This document shows positions 6,379 to 64,000 of a stretch of 64,000 nucleotides of DNA, piece by piece. The stretch is from assembly GCF_000305935.1 (NCBI RefSeq), contig NC_018870.1, positions 513,942-577,941 on the forward strand, given 5' to 3'. Position numbers and translations under genes: made by a program. Numbering within the stretch: the stretch's first letter is position 1; each line of letters begins with the position of its first letter. Origin of the DNA: Thermacetogenium phaeum DSM 12270 (GTDB lineage Bacteria > Bacillota > DSM-12270 > Thermacetogeniales > Thermacetogeniaceae). A model generated the notes under the pieces. It searched no databases, was not told where the DNA came from, and saw only the letters and a program-made list of their open reading frames with translations.

Positions 6379-6455
6379 GCCGACGTAGCTCAACTGGCAG
6401 AGCGGCTGACTTGTAATCAGCAGGTTTAGGGGTTCAAGTCCCCTCGTCGGCTCCA
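6379..6455 (+). tRNA. tRNA-Thr (UGU)
   Basis: Acceptor GCCGACG pairs with CGTCGGC (6445-6451). The anticodon stem GCTGA/TCAGC encloses loop CTTGTAA, giving anticodon TGT. The T arm has GGTTCAAGTC, and CCA is encoded (6453-6455). Confidence 0.97.
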
Positions 6456-6469
6456 GGGAGAAAAGATGT

Positions 6470-6554
6470 GGAGAGGTACCCGAGTGGTCAAAGGGAGCAG
6501 ACTGTAAATCTGCCGGCGCAGCCTTCGCAGGTTCGAATCCTGCCCTCTCCACCA
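6470..6554 (+). tRNA. tRNA-Tyr (GUA)
   Basis: Acceptor GGAGAGG pairs with CCTCTCC. Anticodon loop CTGTAAA gives GTA. A long variable arm makes it a class II tRNA, as expected for bacterial tRNA-Tyr. CCA is encoded. Confidence 0.97.
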
Positions 6555-6557
6555 TAT

Positions 6558-6633
<76 letters not shown>

Positions 6634-6634
6634 C

Positions 6635-6710
6635 GCCCACATAGCTCAGCGGGTAGAGCGTCGCCTTGGTAAGGCGGAGGTCACCGGTTCAAGCCCGGTT
6701 GTGGGCTCCA
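6635..6710 (+). tRNA. tRNA-Thr (GGU)
   Basis: Acceptor GCCCACA pairs with TGTGGGC. The loop TTGGTAA gives anticodon GGT. CCA is encoded (6708-6710). Last gene of the four-tRNA unit. Confidence 0.96.
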
Positions 6711-19117: not shown

Positions 19118-19385
19118 GAATAGAATCGCAATTTTTTCGGGTGAATGGCCGTTAAATCACCGAAGTGCCCATGATTCTGGGGTCGGTCAGCAGTCTCCCT
19201 CCTGGATTTGGTGAGGGTGAATTTTGCCTCGTTGCCCTTTTTTGACTGCTGTGATAATATTATCAATCCTGTTGTTGCGGTGGTAAGAGAAGCGGGATGG
19301 AAGCGGCTACAAAAAAATTTTTTCTAGCCTGGCAGGAGAATTGTTTGGGCACGGCAAAATAAATAAATAAAAAGGAATAAATCCA
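19118..19385 (+). other. Gap between receptor gene and cobalamin riboswitch
   Basis: About 270 bases. TTGACT at 19242-19247 is a possible -35, but no good -10 stands 16-18 bases away. No gene seen. Confidence 0.5.
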
Positions 19386-19632
19386 TATCCGGACAGGTGG
19401 CCTTTAGCAATAAAGGCTGAAAAGGGAAACCGGTGCGAATCCGGTGCGATCGCGTCACTGTGAGGGGAAGCCCCCCTGCAAGGTGCCACTGTCCGACACT
19501 TGATATCCCGCGGAGGGCCGGAGCCGGCTCAAGAAGGCATCCGCTCCCGACTGCAGAAGGGGATATTGGGTGCTGGATGGGAAGGCGCAGGGTGGGAATG
19601 CACCCGAGCCAGGAAACCTGCCTGTACCGGGG
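19386..19632 (+). promoter_or_regulatory. Cobalamin riboswitch of the cbi operon
   Basis: Typical AdoCbl-type landmarks in order: GACAGGTGGCC near the start, GGGAAACCGGTGCGAATCCG (core), the B12 box TGCCACTGTCC (about 19484-19494), a long variable arm, and GAGCCAGGAAACCTGCCTG at the 3' end. It precedes cbiB and, given tight spacing downstream, probably the whole cbi unit. Expression should fall when cobalamin is plentiful. Confidence 0.95.
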
Positions 19633-19694
19633 ACACCGATGTCCTACGCTAGATAGGGAGGTTGTCCGCTTGCTCACCCGTTTTTGGTGGCTGC

Positions 19695-19724
19695 AGCCCC
19701 GGTCTTGTGTAGGCCGGGGTTTTC
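19695..19724 (+). terminator. Riboswitch expression-platform terminator
   Basis: GCCCCGGTCT and AGGCCGGGGT form a stem around TTGTGT, followed by TTTTC. It sits between the aptamer and cbiB. Confidence 0.8.
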
Positions 19725-19743
19725 AATTTGGGGTTGTGGTGGC

Positions 19744-20739
19744 ATGTTCGGAATAACGGCTGGAGGAACGCTTCTGCTGGCAGTTGGGCTGGATCTCTTG
19801 ATCGGTGACCCGGAGAGCCGGTTCCACCCGGTGGCCCTGCTGGGAAAAGCGATCGCCGGATTGGAGGGTCTTCTGTATAGGGATGCCGCTTCTAGCGCTA
19901 GCCGGCGCCTGGCGGGTGCCGTTCTCGTTCTGGTCAGCGCTGCGCCTGTTTGCATCATCAGCTCACTTTTGCTGGCCCTTCTGGAGAGAGAGAGCCCGCT
20001 TCTGGCGGCGGCAGCAGGAGGGTTTTTCCTCTGGAGCACCATTGGAGCGAACAGCCTGAAGCGGGAGGCCCGCCGGGTTCTGGAATTTCTTCAGGATGGC
20101 GATCTCCAAGCGGCGCGGGAGCGGCTGGGGCTGATCGTGGGCAGGGATACGGAGCACCTGGATGAGGGGGAGATCACCAGGGCTACAGTGGAAACCGTGG
20201 CGGAGAACATTTCCGACGGGGTTATCGCTCCCCTCTTCTACTTCGCCGTCGGTGGGGTTCCCCTGGCCTTGACCTACCGGGTGATCAATACTCTGGATTC
20301 CATGGTGGGCTACCGAAACGAGAGGTACCGGGAATTCGGCTGGTTTGCCGCCAGGCTGGACGATGTTGCCAATTTCCTCCCCGCCCGCCTTACCGTACTT
20401 CTTCTGGTGGCCGGTGCTTTTCTCCTCGGTTACGACTGGCGCCGCGCCCTGTCCGTCACCTGGAGGGACGGGAGGAAACACGCAAGCCCCAACAGTGGCT
20501 ATCCGGAAGCGGCGGTGGCAGGCGCCCTGGGCATCCGGCTGGGAGGCCTCAATTACTATCAGGGTATCCCCTCGCTAAGAGCGCATCTGGGGGATCCCCT
20601 GCAGCCTCTGGAGAGGTCTCAGATCGCTGCAGCCGTAAGGCTGGTCGACGCTGTGCTGTTCCTGTTTCTGTTCCTCTATTATGCCCTCTTCCTGCTTGCC
20701 GGCGGAAGCAACATCTTTCCCGGAGGGGGTTGGCGATGA
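19744..20739 (+). CDS. cbiB: Adenosylcobinamide-phosphate synthase CbiB
   Basis: 331 residues from ATG 19744. The frame is open upstream but crosses the terminator, so the longer start is rejected. Family motifs: LLIGDPESRFHPVALLGK at the N-terminus, DTEHLDEGEITRATVETVAENISDGVIAPLF in pieces around residue 140, and HASPNSGYPEAAVAGALGI near 245. Several membrane helices. It joins the aminopropanol phosphate arm to the corrin ring. The arm precursor comes from the PduX-like and CobD proteins encoded next. Confidence 0.95.
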   Translation: MFGITAGGTLLLAVGLDLLIGDPESRFHPVALLGKAIAGLEGLLYRDAASSASRRLAGAVLVLVSAAPVCIISSLLLALLERESPLLAAAAGGFFLWSTIGANSLKREARRVLEFLQDGDLQAARERLGLIVGRDTEHLDEGEITRATVETVAENISDGVIAPLFYFAVGGVPLALTYRVINTLDSMVGYRNERYREFGWFAARLDDVANFLPARLTVLLLVAGAFLLGYDWRRALSVTWRDGRKHASPNSGYPEAAVAGALGIRLGGLNYYQGIPSLRAHLGDPLQPLERSQIAAAVRLVDAVLFLFLFLYYALFLLAGGSNIFPGGGWR

Positions 20740-21668
20740 TCTTGCAGGGAACTGCCCTGATGCCGGGTTCCTGCGGGGAGCTGGTGCAGGGTACGCTACA
20801 AGGGGTTAATTTCCTGGTGACCTGTCCGGTCAACTGGTTCAGCAGGGTTACCGTTCATGTCGGCCCCTCGCTCAGGGATGCTTATCCGGCAGGGCGCTCG
20901 AAAACGGCACGGGCGGTGCGGAAGCTGCTCGACTGGTGTGGCTGCGAGGATTTCGGGGCGGTGATTGAGGTTGCCTCCACTATCCCTGTGGGCAAAGGGA
21001 TGGCCAGCAGCACCGCCGACCTGGCTGCCGGCTGTTATGCCGTGGCAGCGGCCCTGGGGATCCGGCCGGATCCAGCTTTAATAGCCCGGATTGCCCTCTC
21101 CATCGAGCCCTCCGACGGGACGTTCCTGCCCGGCATCGCTCTCTTTGACCACGTCAGGGGGCGGCTTCGTGAGGGGCTGGGAAACCCCCTTTCCTTGGGC
21201 ATCCTAGTTCTCGACTTTGGTGGCCGGGTGGATACCCTGGGGTTCAACAGGCGCCCGGACTTGCGTGATTTGAACAGGGAGAACGAGCCCCAGGTGGAGC
21301 GCGCTTTGGATCTCGTCCGGCAGGGGCTGCTTCAAGGGGACCCGGTTCTTCTGGGACAGGGGGCAACGATGAGCACTCTGGCACACCAGAGGATTCTCCC
21401 CAAGCCCCGCCTTGAAGAGCTGATCGATTTTGCCGGCAGGCTGGGCGCCTATGGTGTCAATGTGGCCCACAGCGGCACCGTGGCCGGGGTGCTGGTGGCG
21501 CCGGGGATGGAAAGGGACTGCGGTTTCACCTGCAGGATCCTTGAACGCTTTCCGGAGTTGAAGGCCTGCTACCCCCTACGCCTGGTAGGGGGAGGGCCGC
21601 GCTTTCCGGGGAAAATCTCCGGCCGGAGGGGAGGTGGGTGCCGTGCAGAGGCATCAACACGGGGGTGA
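20736..21668 (+). CDS. pduX: L-threonine kinase (PduX-like GHMP kinase)
   Basis: 310 residues; ATG 20736 follows GGAGGGGG and overlaps the cbiB stop. The GHMP kinase ATP loop is IPVGKGMASSTADLAAG (about residue 90). MPGSCGELVQG at the N-terminus is characteristic of the PduX branch. It would make L-threonine-O-3-phosphate, the substrate of the CobD decarboxylase encoded next. Co-location with cbiB and cobD supports this over other GHMP kinases. Confidence 0.85.
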   Translation: MILQGTALMPGSCGELVQGTLQGVNFLVTCPVNWFSRVTVHVGPSLRDAYPAGRSKTARAVRKLLDWCGCEDFGAVIEVASTIPVGKGMASSTADLAAGCYAVAAALGIRPDPALIARIALSIEPSDGTFLPGIALFDHVRGRLREGLGNPLSLGILVLDFGGRVDTLGFNRRPDLRDLNRENEPQVERALDLVRQGLLQGDPVLLGQGATMSTLAHQRILPKPRLEELIDFAGRLGAYGVNVAHSGTVAGVLVAPGMERDCGFTCRILERFPELKACYPLRLVGGGPRFPGKISGRRGGGCRAEASTRG

Positions 21669-22737
21669 CCTGACTCTGATGGCGGGGCGGTACGGAAGGC
21701 GCCCGGAGGATTTCCTGGATTTCAGCGTCAATGTCAACCCTTTAGGCCCTTCGCCGGGGGTTGCCTCCCTGCTGCGGGACGGGCTAAAGTACGCCACCGT
21801 TTACCCGGAGCCGGGTTGCCGGTCTTTAAAAGAAAGGTATGCCCCCTTTTTCGGGGTTCGGCCGGAGCAGCTGATCTTCACCAACGGCGCCGTGGAGCTC
21901 ATCTATCTGGTTTTCATCGCCCTCCGACCGCGCACCGTGCTCATCCCTGCCCCGACCTTTCGGGAGTATGAGCTGGCGGCCAGAGCCTGGGGAGGGCGAC
22001 TGAAAATGCTCCGGTTGGAGCCGGTCAAGGGGTTCATCCCCGGTACGCAATCCTTGATGCGGGCTGCCCGGGGTGCCGAGCTGGTTTTCCTCTGCAACCC
22101 CAACAACCCCACGGGTAGCCTGATCCCGCCGCAGGTTCTGGAGACCTTTCTTGAATTCTGCGAGGCCGAAGGGGTTTTTGCCGTGGTCGATGAATCGTTT
22201 CTGCTTTTTCACCCCCGCTGGCGGGAGCTGACCGCAGGGACGGCGGCCGCTGCCAGCAGGCGGCTTCTCGTTCTGCAGTCCCTGACGAAGTTCTTTGCCA
22301 TACCGGGACTGCGCCTCGGCTGCGGCATCGCCCATCCCGAGACCATCTCTCTTCTGGCGCGGTTCCATCCCCCCTGGCAGGTCAACGGCCTTGCCCAGGC
22401 TGCGGCTCTGGCCGCTTTGCAGGATGAAGGGTATGCCTTCCGATCGCGCCACTTAGTCGAAGAGGAGAGGTCGCGGCTGGCGGCCGCCCTCTCGGCCCTG
22501 CCGGGGATCCGGGTTTATTCCTCAGAAGCAAGCTATCTCCTGATAGAGCTGGCTTCACCCCTTTCGGCGCCCTTTGTTGCCGAAAGGCTCGCCCAAAGGG
22601 GGATCCTGGTGCGGGACTGCAGCAACTTTGCCTTTTTGGATGAACGCTTCATCAGGGTGGCCGTCAAGGGGCGCCGGGAAAACGAACTGCTGGTTCGGGA
22701 GCTGGCAGGGCTGCTGGCGGGGGTGTTCAAAACATGA
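21643..22737 (+). CDS. cobD: Threonine-phosphate decarboxylase CobD
   Basis: 364 residues from GTG 21643; GTG 21634 is also in frame but sits on the ribosome site. PLP-dependent fold type I: DFSVNVNPLGPSPGV at the N-terminus, FLCNPNNPTG (about residue 152), and SLTKFFAIPGLRLGC containing the PLP lysine (about residue 213). Converts threonine phosphate to aminopropanol phosphate for CbiB. Histidinol-phosphate aminotransferase is the nearest alternative, but the B12 context favours CobD. Overlaps the kinase gene by 26 bases. Confidence 0.9.
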   Translation: MQRHQHGGDLTLMAGRYGRRPEDFLDFSVNVNPLGPSPGVASLLRDGLKYATVYPEPGCRSLKERYAPFFGVRPEQLIFTNGAVELIYLVFIALRPRTVLIPAPTFREYELAARAWGGRLKMLRLEPVKGFIPGTQSLMRAARGAELVFLCNPNNPTGSLIPPQVLETFLEFCEAEGVFAVVDESFLLFHPRWRELTAGTAAAASRRLLVLQSLTKFFAIPGLRLGCGIAHPETISLLARFHPPWQVNGLAQAAALAALQDEGYAFRSRHLVEEERSRLAAALSALPGIRVYSSEASYLLIELASPLSAPFVAERLAQRGILVRDCSNFAFLDERFIRVAVKGRRENELLVRELAGLLAGVFKT

Positions 22738-23056
22738 GATCCGTGCCCCTGTCGGCACCGTCCAGAAAAGGACGATGTTCCTGTTTTTTGGGATGAGGCC
22801 GCCATGTTGCCTTTGGTAAGTGCCGATGCCCTAAGTTGCACCTGCTGCGAGAAGAGGCGGCCTGATAAAGCCCCGGAAGCGAGGACTCGGAAACGATTCC
22901 GCAGCGGCCTGCTGCCTGCCGGGGATAGGGAGGTGGTTTTTATGATTGTCCGCCGCATCGTTTTGTAGGGGTTGTTGATGTTGGCCTTGAGGCCTGTTCA
23001 CAGGAGGCGGGTTGTAAGGGCTGGAGATGGTAAAAAACTAGGGGGGAGTGAGCTTC
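22738..23056 (+). other. cobD-cbiM intergenic region
   Basis: Holds tandem hairpins right after cobD (GTGCC/GGCAC and CGTCC/GGACG, then a T-rich stretch), the structured element at 22796-22924, and an open frame 22804-22968 of 54 codons with a CTCCEKRR string. Its last part could also be an 8-codon peptide (ATG 22942, AGGGAGG upstream). I do not call either as a gene. Confidence 0.5.
22796..22924 (+). ncRNA. Unidentified structured leader upstream of cbiM
   Basis: AGGCCGCC (22796-22803) pairs perfectly with GGCGGCCT (22856-22863). Next comes a three-way arrangement: CCCCGG (22871-22876) with CCGGGG (22919-22924), enclosing hairpins CGGAA/TTCCG (22888-22901) and GCAGC/GCTGC (22901-22915). It has no B12 box. 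Its place before a cobalt transporter suggests metal or corrinoid control, which is inference. Confidence 0.4.
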
Positions 23057-23863
23057 GTGCTTTTCCGGAGGTGTTTAAGAAAGGCGGTATTCCGGCGGCC
23101 GAAGAAGCCGATCCTGGTAGCGCTTTTGGTCGTGGTTTTGCTGCAGGCACCTGCTGCTGCCTATGCCATGCACATCATGGAAGGATTTTTGCCGGCAAAG
23201 TGGTGCCTTTTCTGGTGGCTTCTCACGATTCCCTTTATCCTGGTCGGGATGTTCTCCATTTCAAAAACGGTAGAGCGGCACCCGCAGTTGAAGATGCTGT
23301 TGGGGGTGGCGGGGGCCTTTGCCTTTGTGCTGTCCGCCCTGAAGATCCCTTCGGTGACCGGCAGCTGCTCGCACCCGACGGGCGTCGGCCTCGGGGCGAT
23401 ACTCTTCGGGCCTGCGGCCATGAGCGTTCTGGGGTGCATAGTGCTGCTTTTCCAGGCCCTGCTGCTGGCCCACGGGGGTATCACCACCCTTGGGGCAAAC
23501 GCCTTTTCCATGGCGGTGGTGGGACCCTTCGTTGCCTATTATATCTATAAGCTCTGCTGCCGGCTGAAGGCACCGCTGTGGCTCGGGGTTTTCCTGGCGG
23601 CCATGCTGGGTGACCTCCTGACCTATGTCACCACCTCTTTGCAGCTGGCCCTGGCCTTTCCCGCCCAGGTTGGCGGGTTTACGGCGTCACTGGTGAAGTT
23701 TATGGGGATCTTCGCCGTCACCCAGCTGCCCCTGGCTGTCAGCGAGGGGCTCTTGACGGTGGTCGTCTTCAACCTCCTGGCGGCGTACAACAGGCGAGAG
23801 CTGAAGGAGCTGTCGGTGCTTGGCGGTGAGAGCAGATTTACGGAAGGAGCCGGAATGCGATGA
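23057..23863 (+). CDS. cbiM: Cobalt ECF transporter substrate-capture protein CbiM
   Basis: 268 residues from GTG 23057, with GGGGAG 9 bases upstream (GTG 23048 is too close). A signal-like hydrophobic N-terminus ends at AAAYA, directly followed by MHIMEGFLP. That places the metal-binding Met-His-x-Met at the new N-terminus as in CbiM/NikM. About six further membrane helices; [12 protein letters not shown] and [12 protein letters not shown] are family motifs. It is the S-component that binds Co2+. Followed at once by cbiN, cbiQ and cbiO. Confidence 0.94.
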
Positions 23864-63840: not shown

Positions 63841-63865
63841 AGTCGTAAAAAATGAATAGGATTAC

Positions 63866-64000
63866 TTTTCAGGTGCCCGCAAGGGAGAATAGGGAATCAG
63901 GTGTAAATCCTGAGCGGTCCCGCCACTGTAAACAGGGACGAACCCGAAGGAGCCACTCGGTTGGCCCACCAGCCGGGGAAGGTTCGGGGGAGAATGAGCT
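63866..64000 (+). promoter_or_regulatory. Second cobalamin riboswitch, cut by window end
   Basis: CAGGTGCCCGCAAGGG, GGGAATCAGGTGTAAATCCTG, the B12 box CCGCCACTGTAAACAGGG, GGAGCCACTCGG and CCAGCCGGGGAAGGTTCGGG follow the AdoCbl riboswitch order. Its controlled gene lies beyond the window. Confidence 0.93.

Follow-up and report, generated by a model that had tools for sequence, protein, structure and literature searches.

The 310-nt leader (22738-23047) separating a cobD-type gene from the cobalt-uptake gene cbiM in Thermacetogenium phaeum DSM 12270 probably descends from a second cobalamin riboswitch, close to cbiM, of which only a remnant persists. This reading comes from sequence comparison: Rfam detects no aptamer in the leader, and the former presence and loss of one would follow from what is kept beside it. 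The stretch of DNA that was analysed (64,000 nucleotides, hereafter the window) corresponds to G000:C1:513942-577941 of a genome made up of a single contig of 2,939,057 bases. The preliminary description correctly placed the leader between cobD and cobalt transporter genes, the downstream order according to Pfam being CbiM, CbiN, CbiQ and an ABC ATPase; by eye, the GTG at 23057 has a better Shine-Dalgarno spacing for cbiM than the GTG at 23048. It also located the main cobalamin riboswitch 3 kb upstream, where an RF00174 match indeed heads the gene cluster about 3.2 kb from the leader and is followed by its own platform motif (19652-19664) and a terminator-like hairpin (19695-19721) (Table 1). 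Other RNA elements of the window are a second cobalamin riboswitch (63854-64000), which is cut by the window end and complete in the genome at 577795-577977, a T-box leader (806-1031) and four clustered tRNA genes (6379-6707).

Table 1. Features of the cbiM leader and its surroundings (positions in the window)
Feature	Position	Strand	Basis or remark
Intact cobalamin riboswitch heading the gene cluster	19378-19639	+	RF00174, 115.7 bits
cobD-type aminotransferase gene	21634-22737	+	PF00155, read as CobD
Leader part between cobD and the putative platform remnant	22738-22922	+	no recognisable aptamer, no relative found
8-bp stem, 5' arm AGGCCGCC	22796-22803	+	perfect pairing with 22856-22863
8-bp stem, 3' arm GGCGGCCT	22856-22863	+	folding and inverted-repeat scan
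Predicted three-way junction	22871-22924	+	minimum-free-energy structure, -54 kcal/mol
Probable remnant of a cobalamin-riboswitch expression platform (P13 3' strand, Shine-Dalgarno, spacer, start codon)	22923-22949	+	nhmmer, E 0.0064
Platform motif GATAGGGAGGTGG with Shine-Dalgarno GGAGGTG at 22929-22935	22924-22936	+	exact match
Short upstream ORF MIVRRIVL, 8 codons	22942-22968	+	ATG 22942 to TAG 22966-22968; 8 nt after GGAGG
cbiM, cobalt-uptake component	23048-23863	+	PF01891

The significant signal in the leader is a piece situated directly 3' of the predicted stems (22923-22949). An nhmmer model built from 26 family riboswitches with their platforms and run on the window ranks this piece third, after the two true riboswitches and before a match at E 0.32; the piece scores low, at 8.3 bits (bias 4.0). 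When 31 genomes were searched with the leader DNA, a single foreign match came up (28 bases, 93% identical, in G018); it belongs to a cobalamin riboswitch (L005/L156), where it falls in the expression platform, and this platform shares 22 identical bases with the leader. The T. phaeum genome contains GATAGGGAGGTNG as an exact motif three times: two copies follow RF00174 matches and one is in the leader. Among the 19 other family genomes the motif has 27 copies, 23 of which lie directly behind an RF00174 match that ends about 12-15 bases ahead of the motif; the other four (L144, L145, L146 and L149) have no such match. As a control, the reversed pattern was found seven times in the 20 genomes, against 30 times for GATAGGGAGGTNG. 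In 398 sampled genomes of the phylum, a 22-mer with up to three mismatches gave 29 sites versus 19 for its control. GATAGGGAGGTG is retained in seven of these 29, six of which show upstream signs of a B12 riboswitch, as judged by simple patterns (a B12-box-like string, GYCACTG and CTACG); the exception is the leader studied here.

The G018 riboswitch whose platform most resembles the leader (L156/L005, G018:C273) is followed not by cbiM but by a gene whose product resembles, by eye, a peptide/nickel-type ABC binding protein. Of the seven RF00174 matches in the T. phaeum genome, the weakest (L092, G000:C1:1383245-1383414, 33.8 bits) comes without the usual platform motif; it could be a cobalamin riboswitch that is divergent or in decay.

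The position of the leader points in the same direction as the platform piece. RF00174 is present in 12 of the 13 family cbiM leaders scanned, and the only one without it (L115) extends just 159 nt before cbiM; these 13 loci overlap the platform loci and are not additional evidence for the motif. The order cobD, riboswitch, cbiM is found in G001, G007, G016 and G018, that is, in all four genomes in which a cobD homologue was found upstream of cbiM, and these represent about three independent cases, because G016 and G018 are near-identical at the cbiM locus. cobD was not found in the fetched stretches of G014, G002, G004 and G003, and the stretches from the other genomes are short. The leader, standing before cbiM with cobD upstream, thus occupies the place of an intact RF00174 riboswitch in these four relatives. 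Three of them (G007, G016 and G018) carry an extra frame between cobD and the riboswitch, presumably a MOSC-domain gene. The cbiMNQO cluster of G002 (L011/L168) has about 1.9 kb between cbiN and cbiQ, unlike the other family loci. The suggestion of a second local control before cbiM therefore survives in part: relatives do have one at the same spot, but it is a cobalamin riboswitch and not a cobalt sensor.

The leader itself contains no recognisable sensor. The RF00174 covariance model has no match in 22600-23100 at E values up to 5, whereas the Rfam scan of the window detected the riboswitches at 19378 and 63854. Nothing was retrieved on the strand of the leader from Rfam as a whole, either in the window at the gathering cut-off or in 22600-23100 with E values allowed up to 5, and the sole match, a weak one to RAGATH-25 on the opposite strand (E 0.34; 15.6 bits, the cut-off being 49), is due to chance. 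The NiCo riboswitch, which resembles this case by the cobalt transporter downstream and by the ligand class first proposed for the leader, differs in that its model has no match on either strand of 22600-23100 at E up to 5. The two models that had been recommended, cobalamin and NiCo, thus both came back empty, and cobalt sensing by the leader is without support, no evidence for it having been found. The B12-box consensus AGCCAGGAGACCTGCC and the L5 region GCGGTCCCGCCACTGT are absent from 22738-22949 with up to three mismatches, so that the initial view of a leader devoid of a B12 box was right. A decayed aptamer in 22738-22922 was also considered and left no trace, as local alignments with the spacer-plus-riboswitch stretches of relatives stay at the level of shuffled sequences: the scores were reached by 22 (G007), 166 (G018), 145 (G016) and 99 (G001) of 200 shuffles, the best alignment, with G007, being marginal (score 22). 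The case for a former aptamer consequently rests on the position and on the 27-nt platform piece, since the aptamer part has no recognisable trace.

The intact family platforms indicate what may be missing. P13 complementarity (a 5' strand CCCTA or similar with TAGGG) is present in all 25 non-redundant platforms, with 3-5 Watson-Crick pairs. In 19 of the 25, the best downstream pairing of the P13 5' strand is made via CTAC in the terminator region, for instance CCCTACG with CGTAGGG. A terminator-like hairpin follows in 26 of 26 platforms under lenient scanning and in 22 of 25 under stricter criteria. The L5-L13 pairing in the family is short (2-5 Watson-Crick pairs, a count given without statistics). 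The bound form of other cobalamin riboswitches has its P13 stem stabilised by an L5-L13 kissing loop (PMC10653944). The relatives have an aptamer (about 180-380 nt), then a P13 hairpin (CCCTA...TAGGG) whose 5' strand may alternatively pair with the CGTAGGG of the terminator hairpin and act as an antiterminator, a role suggested by the pairing, while its 3' strand continues into a perfect Shine-Dalgarno GGAGGTG and a short ORF mostly ending inside the terminator. The antiterminator strand would accordingly be the 5' strand of P13 in the family, versus the 3' strand in the model of the P. megaterium metE riboswitch (PMC10653944). This riboswitch (RF00174, with a P13/L13 platform) resembles the leader in the platform motif and the P13 3' strand, and the leader differs from it in having no aptamer, B12 box, L5, proper P13 or terminator. 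Its P13 is limited to CCTG/TAGG (four pairs, including one G-U); neither the P13 hairpin (CCCTA...TAGGG) nor an L5 for the L5-L13 kissing loop was found in the leader, and the terminator scan gave no terminator-like site between the short ORF and cbiM. The absence of a terminator also means that the leader lacks the intrinsic terminator behind the short ORF expected of a leader-peptide attenuator. The leader fails the tests for aptamer, P13 and terminator and so falls outside the cobalamin riboswitch family, though it is probably derived from a member. In this reading, the aptamer, the P13 5' strand and the terminator are lost or unrecognisable here, and the Shine-Dalgarno strand, the spacer, the start codon and the short ORF remain.

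Of the by-products of this comparison, the most interesting is a start codon that the family riboswitches repeatedly carry after the P13/Shine-Dalgarno strand. The 8-codon frame described beside the folds is real and turns out to be part of the platform element, as it sits where the family platforms have short ORFs. An ATG lies 4-10 nt behind GGAGG in 17 of the 26 family cobalamin platforms, whereas shuffling the next 40 nt gave a mean of 3.1 platforms with an ATG at this spacing and a largest value of 8 (300 shuffles); the family platforms are related and so do not count as independent observations. The first in-frame stop falls inside the terminator-like hairpin in 13 of the 17 ATG-bearing platforms. 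One possibility is that the short ORF and its Shine-Dalgarno have been kept by selection and are translated, loading ribosomes in the 310-nt gap and protecting the message or coupling to cbiM. The retained stretch, which is exactly Shine-Dalgarno, spacer and ATG, agrees with this idea, as do the ATG spacing and the stops within hairpins, and there is a precedent in the translated uORF under riboswitch control published for M. tuberculosis ppe2 (PMC11260477). Nevertheless, the peptide sequences are not conserved among the family platforms, six of the 26 have only a TTG, in a possibly hairpin-like element, and the frame does not end in the hairpin in one clade (L142, L143, L152 and L159). Moreover, the Shine-Dalgarno bases of the leader are predicted to be partly paired, and beyond the family the pattern was set aside as a weak signal, with an ATG in 8 of 43 platforms (mean of shuffles 2.5, largest 8, 200 shuffles). 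Selection for such a mini-cistron seems unlikely.

In its full form, the idea extends to the whole family: B12-bound P13 would hide the Shine-Dalgarno, in the B12-free state a ribosome would open the terminator, and the ORF of T. phaeum would have outlived its switch as a ribosome-loading mini-cistron before cbiM. This extended reading is unlikely. The ppe2 case (PMC11260477) is alike in having a short ORF right behind a hairpin with L13 and Shine-Dalgarno; it differs in being an intact, translational switch with a translated uORF shown, whereas the family platforms additionally have terminators and the leader here is sensorless. A search of the open-access literature, most subscription journals being outside its scope, found no study dealing with this leader or with short ORFs of clostridial cobalamin platforms. 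Behind the cbiB riboswitch of the window (19652-19756) and its counterpart in G007 (L164), the frame after the Shine-Dalgarno strand crosses the terminator region. It starts with TTG (19670) in the window and with ATG in G007, and its stop lies 10-13 nt inside cbiB in both, which would permit translational coupling.

Alternatively, the similarity could be fortuitous, a generic ribosome-binding site and a short frame having arisen in an unconstrained spacer with no relation to a riboswitch. The combination of GGAGGTG, a T-rich spacer and an ATG is a common translation start: the GGAGGTGGTTTTTATG tail by itself is a generic ribosome-binding site, and two sites (L188 and L189) match the 22-mer with one mismatch and have no riboswitch signs. 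The 13-mer, too, stands apart from RF00174 in four of its 27 family copies. Against this, the probability of a match falling in the 310-nt spacer, precisely where relatives keep a platform, is about 1 in 100,000, as estimated from those four copies in 19 genomes and from the genome sizes, and pure coincidence is very unlikely.

The folds upstream of the platform piece bear on a different proposal. Both structures of the preliminary description, the perfect 8-bp stem and the three-way junction, are present by pairing and in the minimum-free-energy fold, and the inverted repeats I1 and I3 agree with the predicted leader folds. Their stability is unexceptional (z = -1.81): 10 of 200 shuffles are as stable or more, and among 188 GC-matched stretches of 129 nt from the window 16% are. 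Perfect stems of 8 bp occur in 14% of 659 stretches of this length. When the leader is folded together with the downstream sequence, the ensemble shifts and the z-score becomes -1.57. According to these models, the leader hardly folds beyond chance. DNA searches with 22738-22922 returned only the self-match, both in 20 family genomes (including that of T. phaeum, the class containing no more) and in 398 sampled genomes of the phylum. Lack of conservation of the stems in relatives is what the preliminary description had itself named as speaking against a structured leader. These searches yielded no homologue of 22871-22924 for a covariation analysis. A pairing of 22891-22902 with 22952-22963, within the short ORF, is complementary at 10 of 12 positions and was rejected as a switch, an equally good inverted repeat appearing in 8 of 40 shuffles. 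An exchange of aptamers, in which a new, unrelated RNA domain made of the stem and the junction would drive the retained Shine-Dalgarno and short ORF, with cobalt or a corrinoid precursor as its possible ligand, could draw on this competing pairing and on the closing stem of the junction, which ends at 22924 where the motif starts, but with folding barely above chance, no homologue in either genome set, an inverted repeat of the sort that shuffles produce and no terminator to control, it is extremely improbable.

The overlapping 54-codon frame, whose conservation had been raised as an objection to a structured leader, was rejected as a conserved protein: it has no Pfam match, and nothing in the 19 other family genomes reaches E ≤ 0.001 (the best match, at 0.0056, contains an internal stop). 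The 141-codon frame of the opposite strand likewise has no Pfam match.

If the leader is the relic of a cobalamin riboswitch, it should be passive, because no terminator remains. Transcription of cbiMNQO would then depend on read-through from the cobalamin operon, in which case B12 control would come from the intact riboswitch at 19378, which probably governs these genes. Read-through is plausible because there is no promoter-like site and no excess of terminators between 19640 and 23060: no sigma-70-type promoter was found in this interval, and its four terminator-like sites, one of which is the riboswitch's own hairpin, compare with 4.4 in shuffles. Two sites on the + strand inside cluster genes (19903 and 22249) count against this picture.

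The recurring Shine-Dalgarno and start codon raise the question of whether terminator-bearing B12 riboswitches also act via the translation of a short ORF. Riboswitch remnants, for their part, are seldom followed, as aptamer models are blind to a site that has lost its aptamer; in this case, the platform is the only mark left. The genus is known from a single genome, which limits the view of the decay, and synteny would date the loss of the riboswitch to one lineage. Two B12 switches in a gene cluster may thereby be reduced to one after the genes of the cluster have come to form a single transcript.
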